64,000 nucleotides of DNA from Odiellus spinosus. Its lineage: Eukaryota > Arthropoda > Arachnida > Opiliones > Phalangiidae. Below, in pieces: positions 1 to 23,729 of this stretch. Position numbers and translations under genes: made by a program. The stretch lies in assembly GCA_963920705.1 (NCBI GenBank), contig OY987232.1, positions 18,265,942-18,329,941 of the forward strand, written 5' to 3'. Numbering within the stretch: the stretch's first letter is position 1; every line of letters starts with the position of its first letter. A model generated the notes under the pieces. The model did not search any database. It saw only the letters and a program-made list of their open reading frames with translations, and was not told the origin of the DNA.

Positions 1-216
1 GGCTGTTGCCTGGACAACCATGATCACTAGCTGCCACGAGTTTCATTCCTACGAAATAATTCATTTGCTTATTGAGAAGTAATACGCGTTAAGTTCATTT
101 TTAGATTTCTTAAACCCGAAAATATGATATTTAGTAAAAACTAAATTTATGTACTGACCTATTTCGGAACAGCCAATCAAGAGAACGAAGAGAGCCAGGA
201 AAATAACTTTGTTCAT
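1..216 (-). CDS. Defensin-like secreted peptide A (partial, cut by window edge)
   Basis: Minus-strand gene of the cysteine-rich peptide family. The signal exon codes at 216-159 (58 nt, ending in phase 1 at a GTCAGT donor; acceptor TTTCAG just above 229). The mature exon starts at 48, after the acceptor TTATTTCGTAG, and runs off the left edge after the first conserved block (H-G-C-P-G-N-S). Its visible 48 bases equal those of gene I, so A is probably a close copy of I and the array continues to the left. The signal exon is intact. The function is inferred only from the complete siblings: a secreted CS-alpha-beta defensin-type peptide. Confidence 0.8.
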
Positions 217-433
217 TGTGGATTTTAATCTGAAATAATTCCTAATTAAATAAATCAGGAAAATAAAACTAATTTAAGCCTATATTAGCTAAAGTATCCA
301 GAAATTTAGAGTAGCCAATAAGAGCTAATAGAAAACCTTCCTTTGAAAGGAGTAGCCGATGGATTAAGCTTTCCTTTCGTATAGCTAAGCTTTGATATTT
401 GAACAACGAATAATTTAAATGAAAACAACTTAC

Positions 434-580
434 TCGTTTGAACGATGTTCCAATTGAAAGAAGTTGAGTTTTAAATGAAACTAGTCCGACTTGGTCTTGT
501 AAGGATGCGAGCCGTGATTGGATATGCTCTTTAGGAGGACCCTTCTGTCTATTTATACTATTTCCCCCGGTCAAGATCAT
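434..580 (-). promoter_or_regulatory. Promoter and non-coding exon 1 of gene A
   Basis: The TATA box (TATAAATAG) is at 557-549, directly preceded by a G-rich box (GGGGGAAATAG). The conserved leader runs down to a GTAAGTTG donor, with the exon ending at 434. The same module occurs in front of all twelve copies. The transcription start is inferred about 30 bases after the TATA box. Confidence 0.7.
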
Positions 581-599
581 TCGCATCGAACTACTTTTA

Positions 600-1440
600 T
601 CGAATGAAGATTAACATTAAGTATCAATCCGATCCGAAGAACTCTTATCCGCAAATTAGTCTCGAATCGAGTAATGAACTCTGAACTGAAATTAATACCA
701 AGATTTCGCTTCTTGGAAACGGCAAATATAACTTATCTAATCAAATGAACTTCTTAGAAAAATAACCAAAAAACATGTTTTTACTTTCTTTAATTTTCGG
801 AATCGCCATCCTCAACTTCGTAATAAAGAAGTTCCAATCAATTAGTGGACATTTATTTGATGTTTAAATTATCTTCTAAAGTTTGGATTAGTTTGAATGT
901 TTAAAATAGGCCGGTTAATTAAAGGAACTCAATTCTGAAATAATATGATTGGCCCGAATTCTAACCCAACTCATCTTTCAGAATTTAAATAAAGAGCTTG
1001 TTTTATTGAAGTTAAAGGGAGAATGCAGCCATATGAAGAATGAGTTTTTTTTATCTATTTCTTCGTCCGTTCTAACCAATCAGACGTTGCGTAAACAAAA
1101 ACGTGGGTGCCGCTATGAGATTGAATTGCCTGCATGGGTATCTCAGTTGATTAGAACTTGGAACGAATATCCAGTGGCCGGGTGTTGAAGTCCACCCTTG
1201 GCCAGAGGCAAATGACGTCTTTTCGGGTGGGCGTGGCTTAATAACGTCAACAAACAGAGCTAAGATCTATTTCTTAAAGGGAGAAGGCAACCTAACAACG
1301 AATGATTTTAATTAAATATAATATACTTCATTTTTAAATAAACGGCTAAAATCTGATTAAATGCCAACAGATCTTATCTAAATAATAAAATTACGCGGAC
1401 TTCGAAATAAAAAAGTCTTCGTAAATGTAGCGAGGAAAGG
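600..1440. other. Spacer between genes A and B
   Basis: No gene is seen. The part next to A is the conserved upstream spacer found beside every cluster promoter (the 'gaatcgccatcctcaacttcg' block is near 800). From about 1035 to 1430 it is a copy of the spacer at 4730-5090 downstream of C, including a shared stretch reading tcgggtgggcgtggcttaat. The short open frame at 949-1188 lies in this repeat and is not considered a gene. Confidence 0.6.
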
Positions 1441-1557
1441 AAATAAAACGAAGAGCAAACGTTGCGCTTTGAATAGATTCGTATTTATTGAATTTTATTA
1501 CATTTTTGATTGAAAATAGAAGTAATTCGATCATATGTTCACGAAGGAATATAAGTT

Positions 1558-1933
1558 TCAATCATCCGCGCAGTGACAACGGTCTCCAATGCAGAAACCA
1601 CCAGGCAAGCCCATCTCTCTACAATGAGCATCGCATTGCAGTGGGTTGCCTGGACAACCATGATCCCCTGCCACGAGTTTCATTCCTACGAAATAATTCA
1701 TTTGTTTATTGAGAAGTAATACGCGATGAGTTCATTTTTAGATTTCTTAAACCCGAAAATATGATATTTTGTAAAAAAAAATATATATCGAAAAGGGTTA
1801 AATTCCAAAATTGAACTTTTGTTCCACCCGCTCATGAAGTAAACACGATTAGTAAAACTAAATTTATGTACTGACCTATTTCGGAACAGCCAATCAAGAG
1901 AACGAAGAGAGCCAGGAAAATAACTTTGTTCAT
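1558..1933 (-). CDS. Defensin-like secreted peptide B
   Basis: Two coding exons on the minus strand: 1933-1876 (58 nt) and 1685-1558 (128 nt, stop TGA), joined in phase 1. The product is about 61 residues: the hydrophobic signal MNKVIFLALFVLLIGCSEI, then a mature domain starting G-M-K-L-V-A-G-D-H-G-C-P. The cysteine spacing is C-x6-C-x3-C-x9-C-x4-C-x-C, with G-x-C before the fourth cysteine, the classic CS-alpha-beta defensin pattern. Net charge of the mature part is about -3 (counting K, R, D, E), unlike cationic antimicrobial defensins. A polyadenylation signal AATAAA is at 1489-1484. B is head to head with C. An antimicrobial or a toxin-like role is possible; the sequence does not decide. 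Confidence 0.85.
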
Positions 1934-2142
1934 TGTGGATTTTAATCTGAAATAATTCCTATTGAAATTAATCAGAAAAATTTAAAACTAATTTAAGCGA
2001 ATATTAGATAAGGTACGCGGAAATTTAGAGCAGCCAATAGAAAGCTTTCCTTGGAAGGAAGTAGGTACCGATGGATCAAGCTTTCCTTTCGTATATTTAA
2101 GCCTTGCTATTTGAACAACGAATTCAAATGAAAACAACTTAC

Positions 2143-2290
2143 TCGTTTGAACGATGTTCCAATTGAAAGAAGCTGTGTTTTAAATGAAACTAGTCCGACT
2201 TGGTCTTGTAGGGATGCGAGCCGTGGATGGATATGCTCTTTAGGAGGACCCTTCTGTCTATTTATACTATTTCCCCCGGTCAAGATCATT
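2143..2290 (-). promoter_or_regulatory. Promoter and non-coding exon 1 of gene B
   Basis: TATA box at 2266-2258 with the G-rich box just upstream. Exon 1 ends at 2143 at a GTAAGT donor; exon 2 starts at 1946 after TTTCAG, so the 5'UTR is split by an intron of about 200 bases. Confidence 0.7.
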
Positions 2291-2670
2291 CGCATCGAAC
2301 TACTTTTATCGAATGAAGATTAACATTAAGTATTAATCCGATCCGAAGAACTCTTATCCGCAAATTAGTCTCGAATCGAGTAATGAACTCTTAACTGAAA
2401 TTAATACCAAGATTTCGCTTCTTGGAAACTCAAAAAAATAACTTATCTAATCAAATGAACTTCTTAGAAAAATAACCAAAAAACATGTTTTCTTTCTTTC
2501 ATCTTCGGAATCGCCATCCTCAACTTCGTAAATTAGAAGTTTCCATCAATTATTAGACATTTATTTAATGTTTAAATTGTTTTCTAAAGTTTGGTTAAGT
2601 TTGAATGTATAAAATAGGCCTGTTAATTAGACGAACTCAATTCTGAAATAATCTGTGGCCCCAGTTCTTG

Positions 2671-3015: not shown

Positions 3016-3414
3016 AAGTTGGAGGTCAGGTAGCTGAAGTCGAAGTTTTTATTCGGGTTTTTCAAAACATTTGCTTTTGCGAACTTGGTTAATACTGACG
3101 ATAGTTTAAAATTCAATTATGTCCAATGATTGATGGAAACTTCTCTCTTACGAAGTTGAGGATGGCGATTACGAAAATTAAAGGAAGTAAAAATGTTTTT
3201 TAATTATTTTTCTAGGAAGTTTAATATTTGATTAGATAATTTATTTTATAAGTTTCCAAGAATCGAAATCTTGGTATTAATTTCAGTTAAGAGTTCATTA
3301 CTCGATTCGAGACTAATTTGCGGATAAGAGTTCTTCGTATCGGATTGATACTTAATGTTAATCTTCATTCGATAAAAGTAGTTCGATGCGAATGATCTTG
3401 ACCGGGGGAAACAG

Positions 3415-3527
3415 TATAAATAGACAGAAGGGTCCTCCTAAAGAGCATATCCATCCACGGCTCGCATCCTTACAAGACCAAGTCAGACTAAACTCAACTT
3501 CTTTCAATTGAAACATCGTTCAAACGA
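3415..3527 (+). promoter_or_regulatory. Promoter and non-coding exon 1 of gene C
   Basis: TATAAATAG at 3415-3423 follows the G-rich box; exon 1 ends at 3527 before GTAAGTTG. Compared with siblings a short piece of the leader ('gtttcatttaaa') is missing. Intron 1 (3528-3936) is longer than usual because it carries an extra repeat segment also found in F and G. Confidence 0.7.
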
Positions 3528-3949
3528 GTAAGTTGTTTTCATTTGAATTATTCGTTGTTCAAATATCAAGGCTTAGATATACGAAAGGAAAGCTTAATCT
3601 CTATTGGTTCCTACTTTCCAAGAAAAGCTTTCTATTGGCTAAATTTCTATCGTAGCTAATATTTATACAATGCTTAAAGGGAAACTTGGAGCAAAAATTG
3701 GAAGAGTTTTTTCAATTTATTTTCGGAAATATAAATTTGGGCCAATTAAATAATAGGTCGGCGTTTGACACCCAAGACCTTGGCCACCAAATATCGACGG
3801 CTTATTCTTTTAAATTCCGAATCTGTTTTGTTGGCACGGTGATTCCGAAAATCTTTTCCATTTTTAGCTCCATGTTTCCCTTTAAATTACTCTTAAAATT
3901 GCCCGACGCGTTGCCTCACGATTCCAAATATTTCAGATTAAAATCCAAA

Positions 3950-4284
3950 ATGAACAAAGTTATTTTCCTGGCTCTCTTCGTTCTCTTGATTGGCTGTTCC
4001 GAAATAGGTCAGTACATAAGCGGGTGGAACGAAAGTTTAAAAGTTATTTTAGAATGTAACACTTTTAGCTATATTTTTAACTAAATATCGTAAAAATGAA
4101 CTTATCGCGTAATACTCTCAATAAGCAAATGAATTATTTCGTAGGAATGAAACTGGTGGCAGGGGACCATGGTTGTCCAGGCAACCCACAGGAATGCAGA
4201 GACTATTGTGTACCACCTGGGAGTGTTGGTGTTACTGGTCGATGCGATGGAAATAATTGCATTTGCGTTCCTGTTTATCCATAA
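3950..4284 (+). CDS. Defensin-like secreted peptide C
   Basis: Coding exons 3950-4007 and 4145-4284, joined in phase 1 (donor GTCAGT, acceptor TTATTTCGTAG). An apparently longer open frame starting at 4096 only reads through the intron. The mature domain begins G-M-K-L-V-A-G-D-H-G-C-P-G-N-P and has C-x6-C-x3-C-x11-C-x4-C-x-C spacing with a G-R-C gamma-core-like motif. Net charge is about -1. The polyadenylation signal AATAAA is at 4356-4361. The exon 2 acceptor is TTTCAG, ending at 3936. Its start codon is the first ATG after that acceptor, as in every sibling. Confidence 0.87.
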
Positions 4285-4361
4285 ACCTCTGATCCAAATA
4301 CTTTTGTCCATTTTCAAAAACACGAATCAAAAATGTAACGAAAAAATATTTTTTCAATAAA

Positions 4362-5130: not shown

Positions 5131-5231
5131 TCGTATTTATTGAAAAAATATTTTTCGGTTACATATTTGATTCGTGTTATTGAAAATCGTCAAAAGTATT
5201 AGGAGCAGAGTTTTACGAAAGGATATTCGTT

Positions 5232-5608
5232 TCAAGTATTAATGCAATAGCAATAATAACCGACGCATGTACCAGCAAGTAGGCCAACACTTATACAATA
5301 GTCATGGCATGCCTGTTCGTCGCCTGGACAACCATGCTCCCCTGCTGCCACGAGTTTCGTTCCTACGAAATCATTAATTCGCTTATTGAGAGTAATACGC
5401 GATTAAAGTTCATTTTTAGATTTATTAGACCAGAAAATATGATATTTAGAAAAAAATATATATCGAAAAGGGTTAAATTCCTAAATTGAACTTTTGTTCC
5501 ACCCGCTCATAAACTAAACACGATTAGCAAAACTAAATTTATGTACTGACCTATTTCGGAACAGCCAATCAAGAGAACGAAGAGAGACAAGAAAATAACT
5601 TTGTTCAT
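5232..5608 (-). CDS. Defensin-like secreted peptide D
   Basis: Minus-strand coding exons 5608-5551 and 5362-5232 (stop TGA), phase 1. The signal has one change from the usual form (F-L-S-L in place of F-L-A-L). The mature domain begins G-T-K-L-V-A-A-G-E-H-G-C-P, so the second residue is Thr rather than Met. Spacing is C-x6-C-x3-C-x9-C-x4-C-x-C with G-T-C. The tyrosine-rich segment V-G-Y-Y-C-Y-C is distinctive. Net charge is about -3. The polyadenylation signal is at 5141-5136. No frame break. It is head to head with E. Confidence 0.85.
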
Positions 5609-5800
5609 TGTGGATTTTAATCTGAAATAATTCCTATTGAAATTAATCAGTAATTTGAGCGTAAGAATAGCCAATAGAAAGCTTTCATTGGAAGGAAGTA
5701 GCCAATAGAAAGCGTGAGTAATCGATGGATTAAGTTTTGCTTTCGTAAATAATAAGCCTTGATATATGAACAAAGAATAATTCAAATGAAAACAACTTAC

Positions 5801-5945
5801 TCGTTAGAACGATGTTCCAATTGAAAGAAGTTGAGTTTTAAATGAAACTAGTCCGACTTGGTCTTGTAAGGATGCGAGCCGTGATTGGATATGCTCTTTA
5901 GGAGGACCCTTCTGTCTATTTATACTATTTCCCCCGGTCAAGATC
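5801..5945 (-). promoter_or_regulatory. Promoter and non-coding exon 1 of gene D
   Basis: TATA box at 5924-5916; exon 1 ends at 5801 at a GTAAGTTG donor; exon 2 starts at 5621 after TTTCAG. Confidence 0.7.
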
Positions 5946-7024: not shown

Positions 7025-7514
7025 TTGACGCTTTCATAAATTTCCATGATATTTCCTGGTATTCCTGGTTTGTATATGAACCCTGTTTTAGGCTCTTAAT
7101 CGGCATAGGGTAGAATCGGACCAATCAAATTATTTCAGAATTGAGTTCGTCTAATTAACAGGCCTATTTTATACATTCAAACTTAACCAAACTTTTGAAA
7201 ATAAATCAAACATCAAATAAATGTCCAATAATTGATTGCAACTTCTCTAATACGAAGTTGAGGATGGCGATTCCGAAGATAAAAGAAAGTAGATATGCTT
7301 TTTGGTGTTGTTTTCTAAGAAGTTTATTTGATTAGATAAGTTATATTTGCCGTTTCCAAGAAGGGAAATCTTGGTATTAATTTCAGTTAAGACTTTATTA
7401 CTCGATTCGAGCCTAATTTGCGGATAAGAGTTCTTCGGATCGGATTGATACTTAATGTTAATCTTCATTCGATAAAAGTAGTTCGATGCGAATGATCTTG
7501 ACCGGGGGAAATAG

Positions 7515-7770
7515 TATAAATAGACAGAAGGGTCCTCCTGAAGAGCATAAAGTTGTTTTATTTGAATTATTCGTTGTTCAAATATCAAGGCTTATATACG
7601 AAAGGAAAGCTTAATCCATCGGTTACTCATTTCTAAGGAAAGCTTTCCATTGGCTACTTTAAATATCTGTGTACTTGATCTAATTTTCATACAACGCTTA
7701 AATAACTCTTAATATTGCCTGATATTTTGCCATAAATTTCAATAGGAATTATTTCCGATTAAAATCCACA
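7515..7770 (+). promoter_or_regulatory. Truncated promoter and altered 5'UTR of gene E
   Basis: TATAAATAG at 7515-7523 is intact, but the leader jumps from 'gaagagcata' straight to 'aagttgtttt', losing most of exon 1 and its GT donor. The usual acceptor TTTCAG is TTTCCG (7753-7758). With both splice sites gone the leader would stay unspliced. I find no ATG between the TATA region and the normal start, so translation could still begin correctly. Confidence 0.65.
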
Positions 7771-8067
7771 ATGAACAAAGTTATTTTCCTGGCTCTCTTC
7801 GTTCTCTTGATTGGCTGTTCCGAAATAGGTCTGTACATATCGCAGTTTTACTAAATATGATATTTTCGGGTCGAAGAAATCTAAAAATGAACTAATCGCG
7901 TATTACTTCTCAATAAACAAATGAATTATTTCGTAGGAATGAAACTCGTGGCAGGGGATCATGGTTGTCCAGACGACGAACAGGCATGCAATAACTATTG
8001 TGAAAATGAATATCGTGTTAATGGTATCTGCCTTGGAGATCTTTGTAAATGCCTATTCTTACGTTGA
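7771..8067 (+). CDS. Defensin-like secreted peptide E
   Basis: Coding exons 7771-7828 and 7937-8067 (stop TGA), phase 1, both intact. The coding donor is GTCTGT instead of GTCAGT, as in its mirror copy H. The mature domain begins G-M-K-L-V-A-G-D-H-G-C-P-D-D-E; spacing is C-x6-C-x3-C-x9-C-x4-C-x-C with G-I-C. Net charge is about -4. The polyadenylation signal is at 8150-8155. It encodes the same mature peptide as H. Because the 5'UTR intron signals are damaged, its expression is less certain than that of H. Confidence 0.8.
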
Positions 8068-8261
8068 ATTCTTTCGTATATCTTTGATCCAAATACTTTT
8101 GGAAATTTACAAAAACACGAATGAAAATGTAATTTGTTTTTGGGTTTTCAATAAATATGAATATATTGAAAAAGGAATATTAGTTTCCGAAAATCTTTTT
8201 GATTTCGGAGTCGGAATGACTTTTATAATTTGTAGAATAGTGAATCATAATCAGCTATTAT

Positions 8262-8640
8262 CAGTTTACTTTAGAAGAGAATGCGATGTAACAAGTTCAA
8301 ATAGTCCTAATCCACCGGCAATAAAAGTTACGAACAAATAATGAACTAGAAATAAACTTAAAACTTACCCGGAAAGTAGGCTTAGCCGGATTCATGGAGA
8401 TCTTGAATTTCTTCTCATTGATATGTTAGCGACCCATAGAATGACATTGGAATTCTCACGGAGATCTCGCCTTAAGGACGGGTCTTTGCTCATTGGTCAA
8501 GATCTACACGAATCCAAGTAAGACTATTTCCCGGGCGAGTTTTAAATTGATTTCTAGTTTAATATTTGTTCATAATTATCTTTAACTGGAGAATGACGCC
8601 TATTTAAACGGTAAGGAATATAATTGAGTAGGCCTACTTA
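8262..8640. mobile_element. TTAA-family hairpin MITE in the E/F spacer
   Basis: An inverted-repeat element in the convergent 3' spacer (8160-9020) with the family's core: 'cctaatccaccgg', 'taggcttagccggattcatggagatc', then the opposed arm ending near 'aacggtaagga'. The mirror copy is at about 14600-14975. I see no other feature in this spacer. Confidence 0.5.
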
Positions 8641-9096
8641 TATTTCCTGATATTTCCAGGTATTCCTGGTTTGTATATAAAATGTTTTAGGCCAGATTTC
8701 AGCGCTTAATTTTAATTGTAAAGGTTGATTTATAATTCGGCATTGGGCAAAATCGGGCCAATCATTTTATTTCACAATTGGGTGGGTCGTTTATTTAAGA
8801 GGCCTATGTTATTTATATATTCAAACTATTTGATACGTTCACGCAAACTAACCAAAATTGAAAAAAATAATATAAACATCAAATAATTCTTCTTTGATAC
8901 GACATTTTTGTGATTTAGTTCATTTTTAAGTTAACTCTTATCCAAATATAAAGTTACGCGGACTCCGAAAGTAGCGATTAAAGGAAATGGAACGAAGAGC
9001 GAACGTTGCGCTTTGAATAGATTCGTATTTATTGAATTTTTATTACATTTTTGATTGAAAATAGAAGTATTTGGATCATGGATTCACGAAAGCCTA

Positions 9097-9461
9097 TTAG
9101 TTTTTAATATCCGTGCATCGGCAATAACTTTCAATGCAGGAACCAACATAATCGGGAGACTGAGCTTTACAATAGATATCGCATTCGGCTGGGTTGTTTG
9201 GACAACCATGAGTTGCTGCCACGAGTTTCATTCCTACGAAATAATTAATTTCCTTATTAAGAGTAATAAGTTCAGCTTGCTTAGACCCGAAAATATTATA
9301 TTTCGAAAAATATATATACATCAAAAAGGGATACATCCAAAAATGACTTTTCAGCCCGCGTATGAAGTAAACACGATTATTAAAACTGCAATTATGTACT
9401 GACCTATTTCGGAACAGCCAATCAAGAGAACGACGAGAGCCAGGAAAATAACTTTGTTCAT
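9097..9461 (-). CDS. Defensin-like secreted peptide F
   Basis: Minus-strand coding exons 9461-9404 and 9233-9097, phase 1. The signal reads L-V-V-L-L-I-G where most siblings have L-F-V-L-L-I-G. The mature domain begins G-M-K-L-V-A-A-T-H-G-C-P-N-N-P; spacing is C-x6-C-x3-C-x10-C-x4-C-x-C with G-S-C. Net charge is about -1. The polyadenylation signal is at 9033-9028. It is the mirror twin of G, with an identical predicted peptide. The open frame on the plus strand here is a shadow. Confidence 0.87.
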
Positions 9462-9910
9462 TGTGGATTTTAATCTGAAATGATTCGTATCGTGAGGCAA
9501 CGCGTCGGCCAATTTTAAGAGTGATTTAAAGGGAAACTTGGAGCTAAAAATGGAACAGCTTTTGAATTTTTAGACGCGTTTTGGGTCTCCTGACATAAAA
9601 AGAATACGCCGATATTTGATGGCCAAGATCTTGGGCGTCAAACCCCGGCCTATTCTTTTAATGTTTGGGCATTACAAGCGCTGTTGAAGGACGAAATAAC
9701 ACGATTGGCCCAAATTTATATTTCCGAAAATAAAATCGAAAAACTCTTCCATTTTTAGCTCCAAGTTTCCCTTTAGGCATTGTATAAATATTAGCTGCAG
9801 TACCCACAAATTTAGAGCAGCCAATATAAACCTTTCCTTGGAAAGAAGTACTAGCTAATAGAAAGCTTTCCTTGGAAATGAGTAGCCGATGGATTGCAAG
9901 TTCAACTTAC

Positions 9911-10050
9911 TCGTTTGAACGATGTTCCAATTGAAAGAAGTTGAGTTTTAAATGAAACTAGTCTGTCTTGGTCTTGTAAGGATGCGAGACGTGGATGGAT
10001 ATGCTCTTTAGGAGGACCCGTCTGTCTATTTATACTATTTCCCCCGGTCA
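9911..10050 (-). promoter_or_regulatory. Promoter and non-coding exon 1 of gene F
   Basis: TATA box at 10034-10026; exon 1 ends at 9911 (GTAAGTTG donor); exon 2 starts at 9474 after a TTTCAG-like acceptor. The intron holds an inserted repeat with opposed words around 9510-9780 that also occurs in C and G. Confidence 0.7.
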
Positions 10051-10289
10051 AGATCATTCGCATCGAACTACTTTTATCGAATGAAGATTAACATTAAGTA
10101 TTAATCCGATACGAAGAACTCTTATCCGCAAATTAGTCTCGAATCGAGTAATGAACTCTTAACTGAAATTAATACCAAGATTTCGCTTCTTGGAAACGTA
10201 AAAAATAACTTATCTAATCAAATGAACTTCTTAGAAAAATAACCAAAATCGTGTCTATTTTTTTTCATTTGGGAATCGCCATCCCCACA

Positions 10290-10560
10290 TAGAAAAGACA
10301 TATTTAATATTTCAATCATCGTTTCGGCCCCCCTTTTTAACGGAGCTTTCGATTCGCGATATTTTTGTTTTTGGTAAAAAATATGAATAATAAAATAGTT
10401 ATCAAAGTTCTCTCGAATTACGCGTAAATAATATTTAAAATTTTCTAAGAAATCGCGAGATATTTAAAGGGAAACTGCGAGAGATTAAAGTGAATAGATT
10501 CTTATATTCAGAATTTGCGTCCAAGGAAATTAAAAATTTTTTTTACCAGGTTCAAAAAAA
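10290..10560. repeat. Shared spacer repeat (copies at 10.3, 12.73 and 16.3 kb)
   Basis: A block beginning 'catatttaatatttcaatc', with a 'cggccccccttttta' core and ending near 'aggttcaaaaaaac'. It is repeated in the same direction at about 16305-16560 and inverted at 12730-13010. The first and third copies lie just upstream of F and H, the inverted one upstream of G, so it belongs to the duplicated unit. No open frame of note. Confidence 0.65.
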
Positions 10561-10712
10561 CAAATGTTTTGAACAAATGTTTCTATCAATTATTGGACAT
10601 TTATTTAATGTTTGAATTATGTTCTAAATTTGTACGCATAAAATAAGAATGTTAATTAGACGAACTCAATTCTGAAATACCGTGATTGCCCGATTTTACC
10701 CTATGCCGAATT

Positions 10713-12668: not shown

Positions 12669-13253
12669 AAAAGCTGAAGGTGAGGCAGCTGAACTCAATA
12701 TTTTTATTCGGGTTTTTCAAAACATTTGTTTTTTTGAACCTGGTAAAAAATTTTTAAATTTCCTTGGACGCAAATTCTGAATATAAGAATCTATTCACTT
12801 TAATCTCTCGCAGTTTCCCTTTAAATATCTCGCGATTTCTTAGAAAATTTTAAATATTATTTACGCGTAATTCGAGAGAACTTTGATAACTATTTTATTA
12901 TTCATATTTTTTACCAAAAACAAAAATATCGCGAATCGAAAGCTCCGTTAAAAAGGGGGGCCGAAACGATGATTGAAACATTAAATATGTCTTTTCTATG
13001 TGGGGATGGCGACTCCCAAATGAAAGAAAATAGACATGATTTTAGTTATTTTTCTAAGAAGTTCATTTGATTAGATAAGTTATTTTTTAAGTTTCCAAGA
13101 AGCGAAATCTTGGTATTAATTTCAGTTAAGAGTTCATTACTCGATTCGAGACTAATTTGCGGATAAGAGTTCTTCGTATCGGATTGATACTTAATGTTAA
13201 TCTTCAGATTATAAAAGTAGTTCGATGCGAATGATCTTGACCGGGGGAAATAG

Positions 13254-13377
13254 TATAAATAGACAGAAGGGTCCTCCTAAAGAGCATATCCATCGACGTC
13301 TCGCATCCTAACAAGACCAAGTCAGACTAGTTTCATTTAAAACTCAACTTCTTTCAATTGGAACATCGTTCAAACGA
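13254..13377 (+). promoter_or_regulatory. Promoter and non-coding exon 1 of gene G
   Basis: TATAAATAG at 13254-13262 after the G-rich box; exon 1 ends at 13377 before GTAAGTTG; exon 2 begins at 13763 after TTTCAG. Confidence 0.7.
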
Positions 13378-13775
13378 GTAAGTTGAAATTGCAATCCATC
13401 GGCTACTCCTTTCCAAGGAAAGCTTTCTATTAGCTAGTACTTCTTTCCAAGGAAAGGTTTATATTGGCTGCTCTAAATTTGTGGGTACTGCAGCTAATAT
13501 TTATACAATGCCTAAAGGGAAATTTGGGCCAATCGTGTTATTTCGGCCTTCAACAGCGCTTGTAATGCCCAAACATTAAAAGAATAGGCCGGGGTTTGAC
13601 GCCCAAGATCTTGGCCATCAAATATCGGCGTATTCTTTTTATGTCAGGAGACCCAAAACGCGTCTAAAAATTCAAAAGCTGTTCCATTTTTAGCTCCAAG
13701 TTTCCCTTTAAATCACTCTTAAAATTGGCCGACGCGTTGCCTCACGATACGAATTATTTCAGATTAAAATCCACA

Positions 13776-14139
13776 ATGAACAAAGTTATTTTCCTGGCTC
13801 TCGTCGTTCTCTTGATTGGCTGTTCCGAAATAGGTCAGTACATAATTGCAGTTTTAATAATCGTGTTTACTTCATACGCGGGCTGAAAAGTCATTTTTGG
13901 ATGTAACCCTTTTGATGTATATATATTTTTCGAAATATAATATTTTCGGGTCTAAGAAAGCTGAACTTATTACTCTTAATAAGGAAATTAATTATTTCGT
14001 AGGAATGAAACTCGTGGCAGCAACTCATGGTTGTCCAAACAACCCAGCCGAATGCGATATCTATTGTAAAGCTCAGTCTCCCGATTATGTTGGTTCCTGC
14101 ATTGAAAGTTATTGCCGATGCACGGATATTAAAAACTAA
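13776..14139 (+). CDS. Defensin-like secreted peptide G
   Basis: Coding exons 13776-13833 and 14003-14139, phase 1. The predicted peptide is the same as that of F, its mirror twin, including the L-V-V-L-L-I-G signal variant and the C-x6-C-x3-C-x10-C-x4-C-x-C framework. Polyadenylation signals lie at 14192-14197 and 14203-14208. The matching flanks on both sides show that this came from the inverted duplication rather than convergence. Confidence 0.87.
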
Positions 14140-14599
14140 TAGGCTTTCGTGAATCCATGATCCAAATACTTCTATTTTCAATCAAAAATGTAATAAAAAT
14201 TCAATAAATACGAATCTATTCAAAGCGCAACGTTCGCTCTTCGTTCCATTTCCTTTAATCGCTACTTTCGGAGTCCGCGTAACTTTATATTTGGATAAGA
14301 GTTAACTTAAAAATGAACTAAATCACAAAAATGTCGTATCAAAGAAGAATTATTTGATGTTTATATTATTTTTTTCAATTTTGGTTAGTTTGCGTGAACG
14401 TATCAAATAGTTTGAATATATAAATAACATAGGCCTCTTAAATAAACGACCCACCCAATTGTGAAATAAAATGATTGGCCCGATTTTGCCCAATGCCGAA
14501 TTATAAATCAACCTTTACAATTAAAATTAAGCGCTGAAATCTGGCCTAAAACATTTTATATACAAACCAGGAATACCTGGAAATATCAGGAAATATAAG

Positions 14600-14975
14600 T
14601 AGGCCTACTCAATTATATTCCTTACCGTTTAAATAGGCGTAATTCTCCAGTTAAAGATAATTATGAACAAATATTAAACTAGAAATCAATTTAAAACTCG
14701 CCCGGGAAATAGTCTTACTTGGATTCGTGTAGATCTTGACCAATGAGCAAAGACCCGTCCTTAAGGCGAGATCTCCGTGAGAATTCCAATGTCATTCTAT
14801 GGGTCGCTAACATATCAATGAGAAGAAATTCAAGATCTCCATGAATCCGGCTAAGCCTACTTTCCGGGTAAGTTTTAAGTTTATTTCTAGTTCATTATTT
14901 GTTCGTAACTTTTATTGCCGGTGGATTAGGACTATTTGAACTTGTTACATCGCATTCTCTTCTAAAGTAAACTGA
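14600..14975. mobile_element. TTAA-family hairpin MITE, mirror copy in the G/H spacer
   Basis: The inverted counterpart of the element at 8262-8640. It sits in the convergent spacer between G and H (14210-15070), which otherwise holds no feature that I can see. Confidence 0.5.
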
Positions 14976-15168
14976 TAATAGCTGATTATGATTCACTATT
15001 CTACAAATTATAAAAGTCATTCCGACTCCGAAATCAAAAAGATTTTCGGAAACTAATATTCCTTTTTCAATATATTCATATTTATTGAAAACCCAAAAAC
15101 AAATTACATTTTCATTCGTGTTTTTGTAAATTTCCAAAAGTATTTGGATCAAAGATATACGAAAGAAT

Positions 15169-15466
15169 TCAACGTAAGAATAGGCATTTACAAAGATCTC
15201 CAAGGCAGATACCATTAACACGATATTCATTTTCACAATAGTTATTGCATGCCTGTTCGTCGTCTGGACAACCATGATCCCCTGCCACGAGTTTCATTCC
15301 TACGAAATAATTCATTTGCTTATTGAGAAGTAATACGCGATTAGTTCATTTTTAGATTTCTTCGACCCGAAAATATGATATTTAGTAAAACTGCGATTAT
15401 GTACAGACCTATTTCGGAACAGCCGATCAAGAGAACGAAGAGAGCCAGGAAAATAACTTTGTTCAT
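15169..15466 (-). CDS. Defensin-like secreted peptide H
   Basis: Minus-strand coding exons 15466-15409 and 15299-15169 (stop TGA), phase 1. The mature peptide is the same as that of E (G-D-H-G-C-P-D-D-E start, G-I-C motif, net charge about -4). Unlike E, its 5'UTR exon, donor and acceptor (CTTTCAG above 15479) are intact, so H is the likelier expressed copy. The polyadenylation signal lies near 15087-15082. Confidence 0.86.
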
Positions 15467-15570
15467 TGTGGATTTTAATCTGAAAGAATTCCTATTGAAA
15501 TGTATGGCAAGATATCAGGCAATATTAAGAGTTATTATGAAAATTAGACGAAGTACCCAGATAGTTAGAG

Positions 15571-15848
15571 CAGCCAATGGAAAGCTTTCCTTGGAAAGAA
15601 GTGGCCAATGGAAAGCTTTCCTTGGAAAGAAGTGGCCAATGGAAAGCTTTCCTTGGAAAGAAGTGGCCAATGGAAAGCTTTCCTTGGAAAGAAGTGGCCA
15701 ATGGAAAGCTTTCCTTGGAAAGAAGTGGCCAATGGAAAGCTTTCCTTGGAAAGAAGTGGCCAATGGAAAGCTTTCCTTGGAAAGAAGTGGCCAATGGAAA
15801 ACTTTCCTTGGAAAGAAGTGGCCAATGGAAAACTTTCCTTAGAAATGA
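15571..15848. repeat. 31-bp minisatellite in the 5'UTR intron of gene H
   Basis: About nine copies of a 31-bp unit (core ggccaatggaaagctttcct), nearly identical, with the last ones carrying g-to-a changes. Other cluster genes have one or two copies of the same word at this place. Because 31 is not a multiple of three it leaves several frames open on both strands; those open frames are not genes. Confidence 0.9.
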
Positions 15849-15930
15849 GTAATCGATGGATTAAGCTTTCCTTTCGTATAGCTAAGCCTTGATATTTGAA
15901 CAACGAATAATTAGAGTGAAAACAACTTAC

Positions 15931-16075
15931 TCGTTTGAACGATGTTCCAATTGAATGAAGTTGAGTTTTAAAAAAAACTAGTCCGACTTGGTCTTGTAAG
16001 GATGCGAGCCGTGGATGGATATGCTCTTTAGGAGGACCCTTCTGTCTATTTATATTATTTCCCCCGGTCAAGATC
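15931..16075 (-). promoter_or_regulatory. Promoter and non-coding exon 1 of gene H
   Basis: The TATA region is at 16054-16046 (context AATATAAATAG rather than AGTATAAATAG); exon 1 ends at 15931 at a GTAAGTTG donor. Confidence 0.68.
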
Positions 16076-16590: not shown

Positions 16591-16689
16591 ATGTTTATTG
16601 AAAAAATATTTTTTGGTTACATATTTGATTCGTGTTATTGAAAATGGCCAAAAGTATTTGGATCAGAGATTAGCGAAAGGATATTCGTT

Positions 16690-17055
16690 TCAAGTAGGAG
16701 TGCATACGCAAGCATCTCCATAGCAGTAACCATGACCAACAGAAAGTAAAAACTCATGCTGACAATAGTCAAAGCATTCCTGGCTGTTGCCTGGACAACC
16801 ATGATCACTAGCTGCCACGAGTTTCATTCCTACGAAATAATTCATTCGCTTATTGAGAGTAATACGCGATAAGTTCAAGTTTAGATATGATATTTAGTAA
16901 AAAAAAATATCTAAAAGGCTGAAATTCCTAAATTGAACTTTTCTTCCGCTTGCTCATAAACTACACACGATTAGTAAAACTAAATTTATGTACTGACCTA
17001 TTTCGGAACAGCCAATCAAGAGAACGAAGAGAGCCAGGAAAATAACCTTGTTCAT
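16690..17055 (-). CDS. Defensin-like secreted peptide I
   Basis: Minus-strand coding exons 17055-16998 and 16829-16690, phase 1. The mature domain begins G-M-K-L-V-A-A-S-D-H-G-C-P-G-N-S; spacing is C-x6-C-x3-C-x12-C-x4-C-x-C with G-Y-C. Net charge is about -4. The polyadenylation signal is at 16599-16594. Its 5'UTR intron has been split by a 2.6-kb transposable element at 17259-19833, which moves the promoter almost 3 kb away. It is closely related to the partial gene A. Confidence 0.84.
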
Positions 17056-17258
17056 CGTGGATTTTAATCTGAAATAATTTCTATTGAAATTAATCAGAAA
17101 AATTTAAAACTAATTTAAGCGTATATTAGATAAGGTACGCGAAAATTTAAAGCAGCCAATAGAAAGCTTTCCTTGGAAGGAAGTAGCCAATAGAAAGCGT
17201 GAGGTACCGATGGATCAAGCTTTCCTTTCGTATGTTTAAGCCTTGATATTAGAACAAC

Positions 17259-19363
17259 CAGAAGCCGATGAAACCCTCCTTTGAAGTCTACTACTCTAAT
17301 GCTCCTCTCTGTATGGGTAAAATTCCCAATTTTACGAGATCGGAGGGGTCCTACTTCATACCCCCCTGTCTACGGAAAATTGGAAATTCTCTCTCTCCAC
17401 ATACGACGACGTTTTTTTGACGAACTCCGAGGCTGTTAGAGATATTCGCTCGACGAACTCCCGCTCCAAAAATATATACCGTTAGGAGGCGTACGAATCG
17501 CGCTTTTTACCTCTGTCCTGATCGTGTGTGTGTGTGTGTGGGTGTGTGTGTGTGTCCGTCGTTCGCCGTGTTCGCAATTACGTCATCGCAAGAAAATTCT
17601 ATTTTAGTTCAAAACTCTTCTCATAGGTGGCGGTACAATTTCCAAATTCTGAAATTTTCATTTCAAATAAAATCTCTCACAGGAGGTCTCCCTCCCAGTC
17701 ACTGTCCGCGCTCGACGCTGTTAACTTTTGGGATAGCCATGCCAACGCGCTAGCGGTTATGCTATAAGTACATGGTAGAATCTGAGATAAAAACATCTTA
17801 AATCTGTGATAGGTGCTTTACGGAAGCCAGGCCGTGTAATAGTAGCGTCGCGTATAATTCTTTATATATGTATCCAATTAAAAAAAAAAATTTAAAAGCT
17901 TATTACTCGTAATTTACATTATAAAATAAAATATTACTAGTCTTAAACGATCATAATATAATATTCAAATTTAATTATATTTATTAAATTAATTTGACGT
18001 TAACTTTTTGTCACAGGTGACGCTAGATTAGTAGGAAGTAGGACTACAGCAGTATAACGAAATAAAGGCGTACGGTTTTTTTAAAAACTTTAATTATGCT
18101 TGATTTAAATTCTATAATAATTAGTTCTAGTCCTCTCTCAAAAAATCATATTTAAATTTAATTATTTTGTAAATTAACTTTCTATCTGTAAGCATGGAAT
18201 AATTAGTAGCTTATGCTGTAGGTGACACTAGTTTCCCTCGAACTCGGCTTAAAGCTTACCTTAATACCTTTCAGTCAAGGAAGGTCAAACTCATTAAGTC
18301 ATTTTCTATAATTTGTTTAATCACATCATTCTCTTTAATTCAGTCTTAGGTTTAAATTAATTAATAATAAATAATCTAGAAATTCAGTTGTGTTTATTCT
18401 TGTAAAATCCATTTCAACTACAATTTGTTTAATCATAGTTAATTGAATTCTATCATCATTACGTTTAATTTAGTCCTATAGCTTGAAAATAATTTAATTA
18501 TGGTTTTATTGTTTTACTTTTGGTTAGAATAATTTTAATTTAAGATAAACTTCAACTATTATGTATCTGTAAAATAACAGAGGCTCGAAAATTAAGGTAG
18601 GTATGGCGCGTCCGTGCTTGCACGGAGCATGGGGTCTCTTCGTAGAATATTCGACTCTTTCGAGAGAGTGAAAATAAAACTAAACATGACCATGTAGCTG
18701 AATACGTCGCTCCTATTTTTAATTGTCATTAGAATTTCACTAATTATTTTAATACGATTTTTTCGTATCATTTATGCTTAATAAAATAGTATTAGTCTTC
18801 TTCTATCATAATATCATATTTAAATTTAATTTCATTTTGGAAATAAATATGATGTAAACGTTCTACCAACAGGTGACACTAGTTTCATCGTGTAAATAGT
18901 GTAGCGGCAAAAGTAACCTTATAGCAAAAAGTGTGCCACTCCTCTTTCTTATTTTAACCCAAAAATTATAAAATAAATTTTTAACATCGTCTACCTGGTT
19001 TCATTAGTTTTCTTGTTATTTTAATACGATTTTTTCGTATCATTTATGCTTAATAAAATAGTATTAGTCTTCTGCTATCATAATATCATATTTAAATTTC
19101 ATTTTATTTTGTAAATAAATATGCTGTAACTTTCTACCAGCAGGTGACATAAGTTTCATCGTGTAGTGTAGCGGCAAAAGTAACCTTATAGCAAGAAGTG
19201 TGCCACTCCTATTTCTTATTTTATATATATATATATATTTTAAATATAAGGTAAGATTATACTTTGAGTGGGATCAGCTGTAACAGGCGTAATTCACCGC
19301 CTATCTATCGGAAACTATTTTATAGTATATATCAGACCTTGACGACTTCCGGAAACCAAAAAA

Positions 19364-19394
<31 letters not shown>

Positions 19395-19833
19395 CAGTTT
19401 TTTTTTTCAGTTTTTTTTACATGGGTTAGGTTGGGTTGGGTTAGGTTAGGTTAGGTTAGGTCCCACCAAAAAAAAAAAAAAAAAAAAAAAAAATGTAAAA
19501 ACCTACCAAATAATTATTTATTTTTTATTTTTTTTTTTTTTTGGTTTCCGGAAGTCGTCAAGGTCTGACATATACTATAAAAATAGTTTCCGGTAGATAG
19601 GAAGTGAATTACGCCTCTTACGGCTGATCCCACTCAAAGTATAATCATACCTATTATAAAATCAATTTTTAACATCGACTACCTGGTTTCATTAGTTTTC
19701 TTAATTACAATTAGACTTGGGACGAGGAGAGGTAATATTTTGGTTTCCCAACTTGTTGAAACTAATCCATACAGAGAGAGGTAGACAAGACCCGGGAGTA
19801 ATAGACTTCAAAGGAGGGTTTCATCGGCTTCTG
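17259..19833. mobile_element. 2.6-kb member of the CAGAAGCC MITE family (7-bp TSD)
   Basis: The ends CAGAAGCCGATGAAACCCTC...GAGGGTTTCATCGGCTTCTG are flanked by the perfect 7-bp duplication GAACAAC (17252-17258, 19834-19840). It is much longer than its 324-338-bp relatives. The extra interior holds a (GT)n tract at about 17524-17556, two copies of a block with 'gtgtagcggcaaaagtaacc' near 18898 and 19155, and a nested inverted-repeat element. No transposase-like open frame is seen. Confidence 0.85.
19250..19651. mobile_element. Nested inverted-repeat element with (TTAGG)n core
   Basis: Arms of about 110 bases (19250-19362 and 19542-19651) are near-perfect inverted copies starting 'attatactttgagtgggatc'. 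The loop is long poly-T, then a short run of TTAGG and TTGGG units (about 19424-19461, ending in four perfect TTAGG units), then poly-A. No coding sequence. Confidence 0.75.
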
Positions 19834-19863
19834 GAACAACGAATTCAAATGAAAACAAGTTAC

Positions 19864-19975
19864 TTGTTAGAACGATGTTCCAATTGAAAGAAGTTGAGTA
19901 ATGATGCGAGCCGTGGATGGATATGCTCTTTAGGAGGACCCTTCTGTCTATTTATACTATTTCCCCCGGTCAAGA
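19864..19975 (-). promoter_or_regulatory. Promoter and non-coding exon 1 of gene I
   Basis: TATA box at 19956-19948. The leader is shorter than in siblings (a piece around 'tcatttaaaac...gaccaagt' is absent), and the donor reads CAA|GTAACT instead of CGA|GTAAGT, so splicing may be weaker. Confidence 0.6.
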
Positions 19976-20564
19976 TCATTTCCATCGAACTACTTTTATT
20001 CTCTGAAGATTAACATTAAGTATCAATCCGATACGAAGAACTCTTATCCGCAACGTGCTCGAATCGAGTAATAAAGTCTTAACTGAAATTAATACCAAGA
20101 TTTCGCTTCTTGGAAACTTATAAAATACATTATCTAATCAAAGCTTAAATTTTCTAGAAAATAAACCAAAAAACATGTTTACTTTCTTTCATTCGGAATC
20201 GCCATCCTCAACTTCGTAATAGAGAATTTTCAATCAATTATTGGACATTTATTTGATGTTTAAATTATTTTCTAAAGTTAATTTAACTTCTTTGTTACGA
20301 AGTTGAGGATGGCGATTCCGAAGATGACAGAAAGAAAACATTTTTTTTTTTTTGGTGTTGTTTTCTAAGAATTTTTTTTGATTAGATAAGTTATTTTATA
20401 AGTTTCCAAGAAGCGAAATCTTGATATTAATTTCAGTTCAGAGTTCATTCCTCGACTCGAGACTAATTTGCGGATAAGAGTTCTTCGTATCGGATTAATA
20501 CTTAATGTTAATCTTCATTCGATAAAAGTAGTTCGATGCGAATGATCTTGACCGGGGGAAATAG

Positions 20565-20688
20565 TATAAATAGACAGAAGGGTCCTCCTAAAGAGCATAT
20601 CCATCCACGGCTCGCATCCTTACAAGACCAAGTCGGACTAGTTTCATTTAAAACTCAACTTCTTTCAATTGGAACATCGTTCAAACGA
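20565..20688 (+). promoter_or_regulatory. Promoter and non-coding exon 1 of gene J
   Basis: TATAAATAG at 20565-20573 follows the G-rich box; exon 1 ends at 20688 before GTAAGTTG; exon 2 begins at 20909 after TTTCAG. The I and J TATA boxes are only about 0.6 kb apart. Confidence 0.72.
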
Positions 20689-20921
20689 GTAAGTTGTTTT
20701 CATTTGAATTATTCTTTGTTCAAATATCAAGGCTTAGATATACGAAAGGAAAGCTTAACCCATCGGATACTCCTTCCAAATTAAGAAAAGCTTTCTGTTA
20801 GCTACTTCTTTCCAGTGAAAGCTGCTATAAATTTGTGGGTACTTTAGCAAATATACGCTTAAATTAGTTTTAAATTTTCCCAATTAACTTCAATAGGAAT
20901 TATTTCAGATTAAAATCCACA

Positions 20922-21295
20922 ATGAACAAAGTTATTTTCCTGGCTCTCTTCGTTCTCTTGATTGGCTGTTCCGAAATAGGTCAGTACATAAATTTAGTTT
21001 TACTAATCCTGTTTAGTTTACGAGCGGGTGGAACAAAAGTTTGAAAGTCATTTTAGAATATAACACTTTTCGAAATATTATCATATTTTCTGGTTTAAGA
21101 AATCTAAAAATGAACTTATCGCGTATTACTCTCAATAAGCAAATTAATTATTTCGTAGGAATGAAACTCGTGGCAGGGGATCATGGTTGTCCATACAACC
21201 CACAGGAATGCGATGACTATTGTAGTGGTAGAAATGCTCCAAATGAAGATTCTGGTTACTGCAATGGAGATGATTGCATATGCGTGCATAATTGA
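20922..21295 (+). CDS. Defensin-like secreted peptide J
   Basis: Coding exons 20922-20979 and 21159-21295, phase 1. The mature domain begins G-M-K-L-V-A-G-D-H-G-C-P-Y-N-P; spacing is C-x6-C-x3-C-x12-C-x4-C-x-C with G-Y-C. It is the most acidic member, with a net charge of about -6 and two Asp pairs. The polyadenylation signal is at 21388-21393. All splice signals are consensus-like, making J one of the cleanest models in the cluster. Confidence 0.88.
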
Positions 21296-21399
21296 AACGA
21301 ATATCCTTTCGTAAAACTCTGATCCAAACACTTTCGACCATTTTCAATAACAATAATCAAATATGTAACACAAAAAACTATTTTTTCAATAAATACGAA

Positions 21400-21850: not shown

Positions 21851-21934
21851 TTCGTATTTATTGAAAAACAAAAAAAGAAATTACATTTTGATTTGTGTTT
21901 TTGAAAATGCCCAAATGTATTAGGATAATTGTTA

Positions 21935-22266
21935 TTAGTAAGGACCTTGGTTTTGCATTGAATCAAGGCAGTGGCATATGTATCCATCGCAGTTACCATC
22001 CGCTAACGCTAGACTTTGACAATGGTCTTTGCACGCCTGCCTGTTATATGGACAACCATGACTCCTAGCTGCCACGAGTTTCATTCCTACGAAATAATTG
22101 ATTTGCTTATTGAGAAGTAATACGCGATAAACTCAATTTTAGATTATATATAAAGTGTTATATGACTTTCCGCTCGCTCATAAAGTAAACACGATTAATA
22201 AAACTGACCTATTTCGGAACAGCCAATCAAGAGAACGAAGAGAGCCAGGAAAATAACTTTGTTCAT
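21935..22266 (-). CDS. Defensin-like secreted peptide K
   Basis: Minus-strand coding exons 22266-22209 and 22086-21935 (stop TAA), phase 1. The mature domain begins G-M-K-L-V-A-A-R-S-H-G-C-P-Y-N; spacing is C-x6-C-x3-C-x9-C-x4-C-x-C with G-N-C. A tail of about ten residues (L-D-S-M-Q-N-Q-G-P-Y) follows the last cysteine, longer than in other members. Net charge is about zero, the least acidic copy. The polyadenylation signal is at 21862-21857. Confidence 0.85.
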
Positions 22267-22310
22267 TGTGGATTTTAATCTGAACCTATTGAAATTAATC
22301 AGGAAAATTT

Positions 22311-22359
22311 AAAAGTAATTTAAACGTGATTAAAAGTAATCACGCTTAAATTACTTTTA
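22311..22359. repeat. Perfect-looking hairpin in the 5'UTR intron of gene K
   Basis: 22-base arms (22311-22332 and 22338-22359) separated by five bases are reverse complements. The arm resembles the single 'tttaaaactaatttaagcgt' word at the same place in sibling genes, so it arose by a local inverted duplication. Confidence 0.8.
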
Positions 22360-22399
22360 AATACTTGAATAACGAATAATTAGAATGAAAACAACTTAC

Positions 22400-22545
22400 T
22401 CGTTTGAACGAGGTTCCAATTGAAAGAAGTTGAGTTTTAAATGAAACTAGTCCGACTTGGTCTTGTAAGGATGCGAGCCGTGATTGGATATGCTCTTTAG
22501 GGAGGACCCTTCTGTCTATTTATACTATTTCCCCCGGGTCAAGGT
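22400..22545 (-). promoter_or_regulatory. Promoter and non-coding exon 1 of gene K
   Basis: TATA box at 22524-22516; exon 1 ends at 22400 at a GTAAGTTG donor; exon 2 begins at 22279. The K and L TATA boxes are only about 0.44 kb apart, the tightest head-to-head pair. Confidence 0.7.
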
Positions 22546-22961
22546 CATTTGCATCGAACTACTTTTATCGAATGAAGATTAACATTAAGTATTAATCCGA
22601 TACGAAGAACTCTTATCCGCAAATTAGTCTCGAATCGAGTAATGAACTCTTAACTGAAATTAATACCAAGATTTCGCTTCTTGGAAATGATTGATTGAAA
22701 CTTATCTAATAAGAAGTTGAGGATGGCGATTACGAAAATGAATTTATTGGTTATTTTTCTAGGAAATTTATTTGATTAGATAATTTATTTTATAAGTTTC
22801 CAAGAAGCGAAATCTGGATATTAATTTCAGTTAAGACGTCTTCATTACTCGATTGGAGACTACGTTGCCGATAAGAGTTCTTCGTATTGGATTAATACTT
22901 AATGTTAATCTTCATTCGATAAAAGTAGTTCGATGCGAATGATCTTGACCGGGGGAAATAG

Positions 22962-23085
22962 TATAAATAGACAGAAGGGTCCTCCTGAAGAGCATATCCA
23001 TCCACGGCTCGCATCCTTAAAAGACCAAGTCGGACTAGTTTCATTTAAAACTCAACTTCTTTCAATTGGAACATCGTTCAAACGA
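22962..23085 (+). promoter_or_regulatory. Promoter and non-coding exon 1 of gene L
   Basis: TATAAATAG at 22962-22970 after the G-rich box; exon 1 ends at 23085 before GTAAGTTG; exon 2 starts at 23270 after TTTCAG. Confidence 0.72.
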
Positions 23086-23282
23086 GTAAGTTGTTTTCAT
23101 TTGAATTATTCGTTGTTCAAATATACGAAAGGAAAGCTTAATCAGGCTTAATCCATCGGCTAGCTCCTTTCGAAGGAAAGCTTTGGCTACTTTTCCAAGG
23201 AAAGTTTTCTATTAGCTATTTCTTTCCGATTAAAGCTTTCCTGGTTTATTTCAATAGGAATTATTTCAGATTAAAATCAACA

Positions 23283-23662
23283 ATGAACAAAGTTATTTTC
23301 CTGGCTCTCTTCGTTCTCTTGATTGGATGTTCCGAAATAGGTTAGTCCATAATTGCAGTTTTACTAATCGCGTTTTGTTTATGAAAAGGTTAAAATTCAT
23401 TTTAGAATTTAACACTTGTCGTTATGTTTTTATTTTTTACTCAATAACAAATTTTCGGGTTTAAGAAATCTAAAAACGAACTCATCGCGTATTACGTCTC
23501 AATAAGCAAATTAATGATTTCGTAGGAACGAAACTCGTGGCAGGGGATCATGGTTGTCCAGACAACCCACAGGAATGCTATGACTATTGTAAAAGTTTGG
23601 GACCCTTAGTTATTGGCATCTGCCAAGGAGCTTCGTGCATTTGCAATTTTCTAAACGAATAG
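23283..23662 (+). CDS. Defensin-like secreted peptide L
   Basis: Coding exons 23283-23340 and 23526-23662 (stop TAG), phase 1; the donor is GTTAGT. The mature domain begins G-T-K-L-V-A-G-D-H-G-C-P-D-N-P (Thr at position 2, as in D); spacing is C-x6-C-x3-C-x10-C-x4-C-x-C with G-I-C. Net charge is about -3. The polyadenylation signal is at 23722-23727. It is the right-hand end of the cluster; the next gene, on the opposite strand, is the dioxygenase fragment. Confidence 0.85.
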
Positions 23663-23729
23663 GCTTTCGTAAATCTATGATCGAAATACTTCTATTTTCA
23701 ATCAAAAATGTAATAAAATTCAATAAATA

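Follow-up and report, generated by a model that had tools for sequence, protein, structure and literature searches.

Twelve clustered genes for acidic, defensin-like secreted peptides in the harvestman Odiellus spinosus

In scorpine and the scorpion beta-KTx peptides, an N-terminal helical (cecropin-like) domain precedes the cysteine domain. The latter (PF14866) has a cysteine spacing of 6-3-8-4-1, as counted on the 7lgl and 7lgv alignments, compared with 6-3-9-7-1 in ordinary defensins. Constitutive expression has been described for scorpion defensin genes (PMC6435467, in part), acidic defensins, some of them antibacterial, are reported from Amblyomma (defensin-2), Spodoptera (SpliDef), and Bombyx (defensin) (PMC3234185, in part), and a duplicated Drosophila defensin that became a toxin-neutralizing peptide provides a related precedent (PMC11116330, in part). 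For harvestmen, the papers listed in literature searches included one on the antimicrobial peptide longipin (PMC5172563, in part) but none on defensin genes, and no paper contained both Phalangium opilio and defensin. A cluster of divergent defensin pairs like the one considered here was likewise absent from the papers listed. We describe an array of 12 copies of one gene (c1 to c12) that occupies positions 1–23,727 of a 64-kb stretch of chromosome 8 of Odiellus spinosus (contig C8, 18,265,942–18,329,941; hereafter the window). On balance, we favor the view that these genes are a lineage-specific, diversified family of secreted defense peptides derived from defensins in this phalangiid harvestman.

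The window was searched for the signal exon, the start of the mature exon, and the TATA block, allowing up to 15, 14, and 12 mismatches, respectively. This yielded 12 of each, all within the first 23.7 kb, and no 13th instance of any of them in the 64 kb. An earlier note on this DNA had proposed 12 copies with a TATA promoter, a signal exon of 58 bases, and a phase-1 intron, and all 12 copies have this arrangement by sequence; its gene models are borne out in nearly every point. The 58-nt signal exon differs from that of c3 at zero to two positions, and the intron that follows (intron 2) is of the GT-AG type, with donor GTCAGT in nine copies, GTCTGT in two, and GTTAGT in one, and with acceptor TTTCGTAG in all 12; the last base of the signal exon and two bases of the mature exon make up one codon. 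The predicted precursor starts with MNKVIFLALFVLLIGCSEI, of which one residue is altered in c4, c6, and c7, and reads past the intron as G(M/T)KLVA...HGCP followed by the six-cysteine domain. As the note had claimed for the complete copies, the mature frame is open, with six cysteines, in all 12, once c1, whose stop codon ends 92 bases to the left of window base 1, is completed from the adjoining DNA. For comparisons between copies, c7 and c8 were dropped as twins of c6 and c5, leaving 10 distinct copies; among these, the coding frame contains no stops, and the other two frames contain 13 and 35. In every copy, the stop codon is followed within 150 nt by an AATAAA. In pairwise alignments, 97 of 208 gaps between mature exons had a length divisible by three, compared with 55 of 206 gaps for intron 2 and 87 of 302 for the 3′ untranslated region (UTR), a weak mark because the pairwise aligner splits gaps.

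The spliced non-coding leader that the note had ascribed to 11 copies is indeed retained, with a donor, in 11 of the 12 (GTAAGTT in ten, GTAACT in c9). In c5, the donor is gone and the acceptor of the leader intron reads CCG rather than CAG, the only broken acceptor AG among the 12; loss of the donor together with its matching acceptor supports splicing of the leader in the other copies. No ATG occurs in the leader exon of the ten copies scored (c5 and c9 were excluded). An in-frame ATG is found inside the intron in nine of the 12 copies, whereas the first one is exonic in c11 and none is present in c4 and c12 (GTG and TTG were not counted), so that the note went too far in placing the apparent start within the intron in every copy. 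With their coding sequence divided between two short exons, such genes easily escape single-frame gene finding. Further, the length of the signal exon had been given correctly, but this exon probably does not encode the complete signal: when the peptides are aligned with defensins starting with GFGCP, the signal peptide appears to extend about six residues into the mature exon.

That the peptides are defensin-like, as the note had it, is seen in several comparisons. The profile search against defensin and toxin families that the note had called for, conducted with nine mature exons against PDB, matched defensins and scorpion peptides of the cysteine-stabilized alpha-beta (CS-alpha-beta) fold, with best expectation (E) values of 3.3e-5 for micasin and 4e-5 for BmKDfsin3. 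Among the 10 distinct copies, c2 alone passed the Pfam cut-off for Defensin_2 (21.3 bits versus 20.4), and c11 alone passed that for Scorpion_toxin_alpha-beta (PF14866; 34.5 bits versus 27). The predicted model of c3 has its helix (H15–22) and strands (E30–35 and E38–43) in CS-alpha-beta order, with a predicted local distance difference test score (pLDDT) of 77.6, and VIA-align gave a best Z of 3.8 among 298 chains, a low value that is consistent with, but no proof of, this fold. In a protein search of a collection including nr and UniRef, the nine mature exons alone returned three candidates, none with E ≤ 1, and thus detected no relative within its reach; when the query was enlarged by seven ordinary harvestman defensins and three other family members, 18 of 250 candidates were hits (tick, mollusc, and unnamed defensins). 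The sole NCBIfam match was actinodefensin, below the cut-off, in five of ten peptides, and Rfam and tRNA searches gave no match. Taken by sequence, secretion and a CS-alpha-beta fold are well supported for the array peptides.

The array can be compared directly with the ordinary defensins of the same animal. The genome searched comprised 443,074,358 bases in 286 contigs, some small pieces of the published 443,687,896 bases in 310 scaffolds being absent; contigs C5, C7, C8, and C17 correspond to chromosomes 5, 7, 8, and 15 of assembly GCA_963920705.1 (PMC11503004, in part). The COX1 encoded by its mitochondrial contig (16,074 bases) shares 98% identity with that of Oligolophus tienmushanensis, 95–96% with clusters from Phalangiidae and Phalangioidea, and 90% with another harvestman, with Limulus next at 87% (among the best 120 of 7,999 matches). 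A genome search with Defensin_2 found at least nine places, two in the array (c2 and c11) and seven elsewhere, of which six were above the cut-off, and in control genomes weak matches occurred in three of 14, none above the cut-off. Two of the seven ordinary defensins, both on C5, are typical GFGCP genes. Like such defensins (PF01097), which are also found in ticks, scorpions, and molluscs, the array peptides have six cysteines, the CS-alpha-beta arrangement, and the C-x6-C-x3-C motif; array and ordinary defensins alike have a phase-1 intron before one exon with the whole mature domain, and the three own defensins checked (two on C5, one on C7) have a signal exon followed by the same intron. 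An unsplit mature exon after a phase-1 intron, regarded as a mark of defensins (PMC6435467, in part), is present by sequence in all 12 copies. Introns of this kind occur widely among secreted proteins (PMC5308243, section 4), so that having the intron in common is weak evidence for where the family came from; better evidence is provided by the cysteine frame that the two groups share and by the signal-mature junction, which resembles the VxA-xxGCP of the two C5 genes. The published defensin pattern C-x5-16-C-x3-C-x9-10-C-x4-7-C-x1-C (PMC3234185, in part) fits eight of the 12 strictly, and c1, c3, c9, and c10 depart from it only by a third loop of 11–12 residues. The scorpion defensin pattern C-x4-15-C-x2-H-C-x6-9-G-x1-C-x4-9-C-x1-C (PMC6435467, in part) fits c2 and c11 strictly and all 12 when relaxed to H or Y and a looser third loop, but it draws no sharp border, since only three of the seven Defensin_2 genes found elsewhere in the genome fit it strictly.

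The array differs from the ordinary defensins in several respects. First, its cysteine spacing is 6-3-(9 to 12)-4-1, with a C4–C5 loop of four residues in all 12, whereas this loop has seven residues in five and ten in two of the seven own defensins. Second, net charge from the assumed mature start (two residues before GCP) is −2 to −7 in all 12, compared with +4, +4, +3, +3, +1, 0, and −5 in the own defensins and +2 to +7 in 18 relatives; the value of −5, from defensin L010, means that the split by charge is not a clean one. Third, a non-coding leader exon is present in 11 of the 12 array genes. Separately, we note that the defensins L008 and L009 (C7, 0.94 and 1.63 Mb) are near-identical and have an aromatic-rich C4–C5 loop that is unusually long at ten residues, and that defensin gene L005 (C5:20864276) has no ATG where its neighboring sister gene starts and is probably non-functional.

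The short C4–C5 loop brings the cysteine spacing of the array nearer to that of beta-KTx than to that of ordinary defensins: the two spacings agree in four of five loops, the third loop being eight residues in beta-KTx and 9–12 in the array, a CxDHC-like helix is common to both, and PF14866 is the best Pfam match in seven of the 10 distinct copies, although above the cut-off in c11 only. This raises the alternative that the peptides are secreted by glands to act on ion channels or other animal targets in predators, prey, or parasites, in a non-venomous parallel to beta-KTx and scorpine. A uniform signal with a variable mature part is likewise a toxin-like feature. However, potassium-channel toxins usually have a pore-blocking basic face, and the array peptides, counted from the assumed mature start, are acidic without exception. 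Further, unlike scorpine, none of the 12 has an N-terminal helical domain, for which there is no room because the signal exon and 10–11 residues lead directly to the first cysteine. The beta-KTx peptides also come from a venomous order, whereas harvestmen are absent from the four venomous orders named in PMC5983263, which lowers a toxin reading. We consider action on animal targets quite improbable.

Divergence is unevenly distributed along the genes. Among the distinct copies, the TATA block and the signal exon differ on average by 1.6% and 1.7%, respectively, compared with 9.9% for the 200 bp upstream, 13.7% for the leader stretch, 14% for intron 2, and 26% for the 3′ UTR; the 60 bases preceding the signal exon are less conserved (76% identity), indicating that divergence does not follow a smooth gradient. 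In the mature core, about 40% of silent and replacement sites alike differ (replacement, pN, 0.425; silent, pS, 0.401), and in the N-terminal part of the mature exon pN was 0.071 and pS 0.124. Across all 12 copies, nearest neighbors differed by 3–9% in the 5′ part (20% for c5) and by 19–34% in the 3′ part (zero for the twin pairs). The 5′ and 3′ distance matrices were weakly correlated (r = 0.19, p = 0.11), and intron 2 correlated with the 3′ part at r = 0.30 (p = 0.016). Together, these distances and the weak 5′/3′ correlation indicate that the 5′ half has been kept alike and that the 3′ half is old or fast-changing. Gene conversion may be one cause of the 5′ uniformity and constraint another.

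The array could also be largely a relic, that is, recently duplicated DNA with genes that are little used. In line with this, the ratio of replacement to silent change (dN/dS) in the core is near 1, c5 has lost its leader, and the leader intron of c9 has a 2.6-kb insertion and a weaker donor. Yet every copy retains its start, intact frame, six cysteines, intron-2 splice sites, TATA block, and polyadenylation signal, stops are plentiful in the two other frames, and replacement changes are the rarer kind in the N-terminal part of the mature exon. A relic thus seems very unlikely to us.

Several results weigh against defense peptides of defensin origin. Eight of the 10 distinct copies fall below every Pfam cut-off, and a Foldseek search of PDB gave 155 matches with E ≤ 10 but none with E ≤ 0.001. 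The peptide tree (37 rows, c7 and c8 being omitted as twins; 39 columns) has long branches and only two of 34 inner branches starred, and it does not resolve the origin of the array. The negative charge departs from most defensins and depends on where the mature peptide starts, the whole mature-exon product having a charge of 0 to −6. Positive selection on the core was not detected, pN being not significantly greater than pS (pN > pS in 71% of 300 bootstraps). Finally, the 400 bp upstream of each of the 12 promoters contained no NF-kappaB-like site and, hence, there is no sign of immune induction; a GATA site near −170 in all 12 promoters proves little because such sites are common across the rest of the window (1.45 per 420 bp).

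The missing NF-kappaB-like sites would also suit reproductive or signaling secretions (of accessory gland, nuptial, gut, or cuticle origin) that diversify by sexual or social conflict rather than for defense. Fast-changing families of small secreted proteins are typical of such tissues, and nuptial gifts have been studied in other harvestmen (PMC6131725, in part). The fold and the nearest paralogues are nonetheless those of defensins, and we regard this explanation as unlikely.

We therefore return to defense peptides as the reading we prefer. Each gene would be driven by its own TATA promoter; in 11 copies the non-coding leader would be spliced to the short signal exon, and the phase-1 intron would join the latter to an exon that encodes the remainder of the signal together with the complete six-cysteine CS-alpha-beta domain. 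The founder of the family may have been an ordinary arthropod defensin that was duplicated, lost basic residues, and had its C4–C5 loop shortened from seven residues to four, and a recent palindrome would then have doubled part of the array. Its products would be constitutively made host-defense effectors, either antimicrobial or toxin-neutralizing, with exposed loops that diversified against changing targets while the promoter and secretion parts stayed uniform. The role in defense is suggested by the family and by analogy with acidic defensins of ticks and moths that are bactericidal and are treated as individual peptides (PMC3234185, in part). The array is real, ordinary in kind, and unusually clean and acidic; it is not a new kind of system. 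A more specific proposal is that a basic defensin turned independently, in a non-venomous arachnid, into an acidic short-loop CS-alpha-beta peptide with near beta-KTx spacing, giving a twelve-gene repertoire with a gene-converted promoter-leader-signal cassette and independently diverging mature exons; we put this forward tentatively, as a doubtful possibility. The locus, in which a defensin of a non-venomous arachnid would have changed in charge, loop length, and copy number, offers a natural comparison for the step from defensin to toxin in scorpions.

As shown in Table 1, ten of the 12 genes form five head-to-head pairs (c2/c3, c4/c5, c6/c7, c9/c10, and c11/c12), and c1 and c8 are unpaired. 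The large inverted repeat has a core of 1,491 bases at 100% identity (7839–9329 and 13907–15397) adjoined by less similar regions (394 bases at 99% and 799 bases at 97%), which points to duplication or conversion in the very recent past, and mature exons are identical within c5/c8 and within c6/c7. The transposable element in c9 is flanked on both sides by AACAA, likely its target-site duplication. The note had correctly seen that the left copy is cut by the window edge, but its expectation of a larger array was not borne out: the two left-adjoining 10-kb pieces contain the remainder of c1 only, and in the 19 kb to the left of c1 there is no other signal exon, mature-exon start, or TATA block (up to 20, 20, and 16 mismatches). 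Genome-wide, the signal exon was found in at least 14 places, the 12 of the array and two lone genes elsewhere, a family count that rests on this search and the Defensin_2 search, both of which give lower bounds. The signal exons of the lone genes differ from that of c3 by seven (C8) and six (C17) bases; the C8 gene (locus L003, 4518–4811, minus strand) reads GTAATT at the position of the leader donor and has seven cysteines, an odd number, and the TATA block of the C17 gene is only loosely similar (15 mismatches of 46).

Table 1. Positions of the array genes and associated features (window coordinates unless a contig is named)
Feature	Position	Strand	Details
c1	1..568	-	TATA block 523-568; leader exon; signal exon 159-216; mature exon from 48 leftwards
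c2	1489..2277	-	TATA block 2232-2277; signal exon 1876-1933; mature exon 1558-1685; AATAAA 1499, 1489
c3	3404..4356	+	TATA block 3404-3449; signal exon 3950-4007; mature exon 4145-4284; AATAAA 4356
c4	5141..5935	-	TATA block 5890-5935; signal exon 5551-5608; mature exon 5232-5362; AATAAA 5141
c5	7504..8150	+	TATA block 7504-7549; signal exon 7771-7828; mature exon 7937-8067; AATAAA 8150; without leader donor
c6	9033..10045	-	TATA block 10000-10045; signal exon 9404-9461; mature exon 9097-9233; AATAAA 9044, 9033
c7	13243..14203	+	TATA block 13243-13288; signal exon 13776-13833; mature exon 14003-14139; AATAAA 14192, 14203; palindrome twin of c6
c8	15086..16065	-	TATA block 16020-16065; signal exon 15409-15466; mature exon 15169-15299; AATAAA 15086; palindrome twin of c5
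c9	16599..19967	-	TATA block 19922-19967; leader donor GTAACT; signal exon 16998-17055; mature exon 16690-16829; AATAAA 16599
c10	20554..21388	+	TATA block 20554-20599; signal exon 20922-20979; mature exon 21159-21295; AATAAA 21388
c11	21862..22535	-	TATA block 22490-22535; signal exon 22209-22266; mature exon 21935-22086; AATAAA 21862
c12	22951..23727	+	TATA block 22951-22996; signal exon 23283-23340; mature exon 23526-23662; AATAAA 23712, 23722
Large inverted repeat	7602-10576 versus 15623-12713		96.3% identity over 2,976 columns
Transposable element	17258..19834		CCAGAAGCCGATGAAACCC... terminal inverted repeats; 2.6 kb; between c9 leader and signal exon
Lone relative	C8:12.16 Mb		TATA, leader-like stretch, signal exon, mature exon
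Lone relative	C17:11.20 Mb		TATA, leader-like stretch, signal exon, mature exon

The terminal inverted repeat CCAGAAGCCGATGAAACCCTCCTTTGAAGTCTA has 19 matches (up to five mismatches) in the window, at 17258–19834 and from 24947 to 54372; of these, eight pairs delimit elements roughly 0.3 kb long, another pair is that of the 2.6-kb element in c9, and one match is single. Tandem arrays lie at 59790–64000 (23-base unit), 37744–39229 (23), 36722–37375 (28), 27760–28157 (16), and 24060–24343 (23), the first of which has 12–14% G+C and continues past the right edge. An exon at 30159–30350 on the plus strand strongly matches TMIE (Pfam PF16038, E = 1.2e-13), a protein familiar from hearing research. 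Elsewhere in the genome, several nuclear copies of pieces of mitochondrial COX1 are present on contig C17 at 1.1–4.4 Mb.

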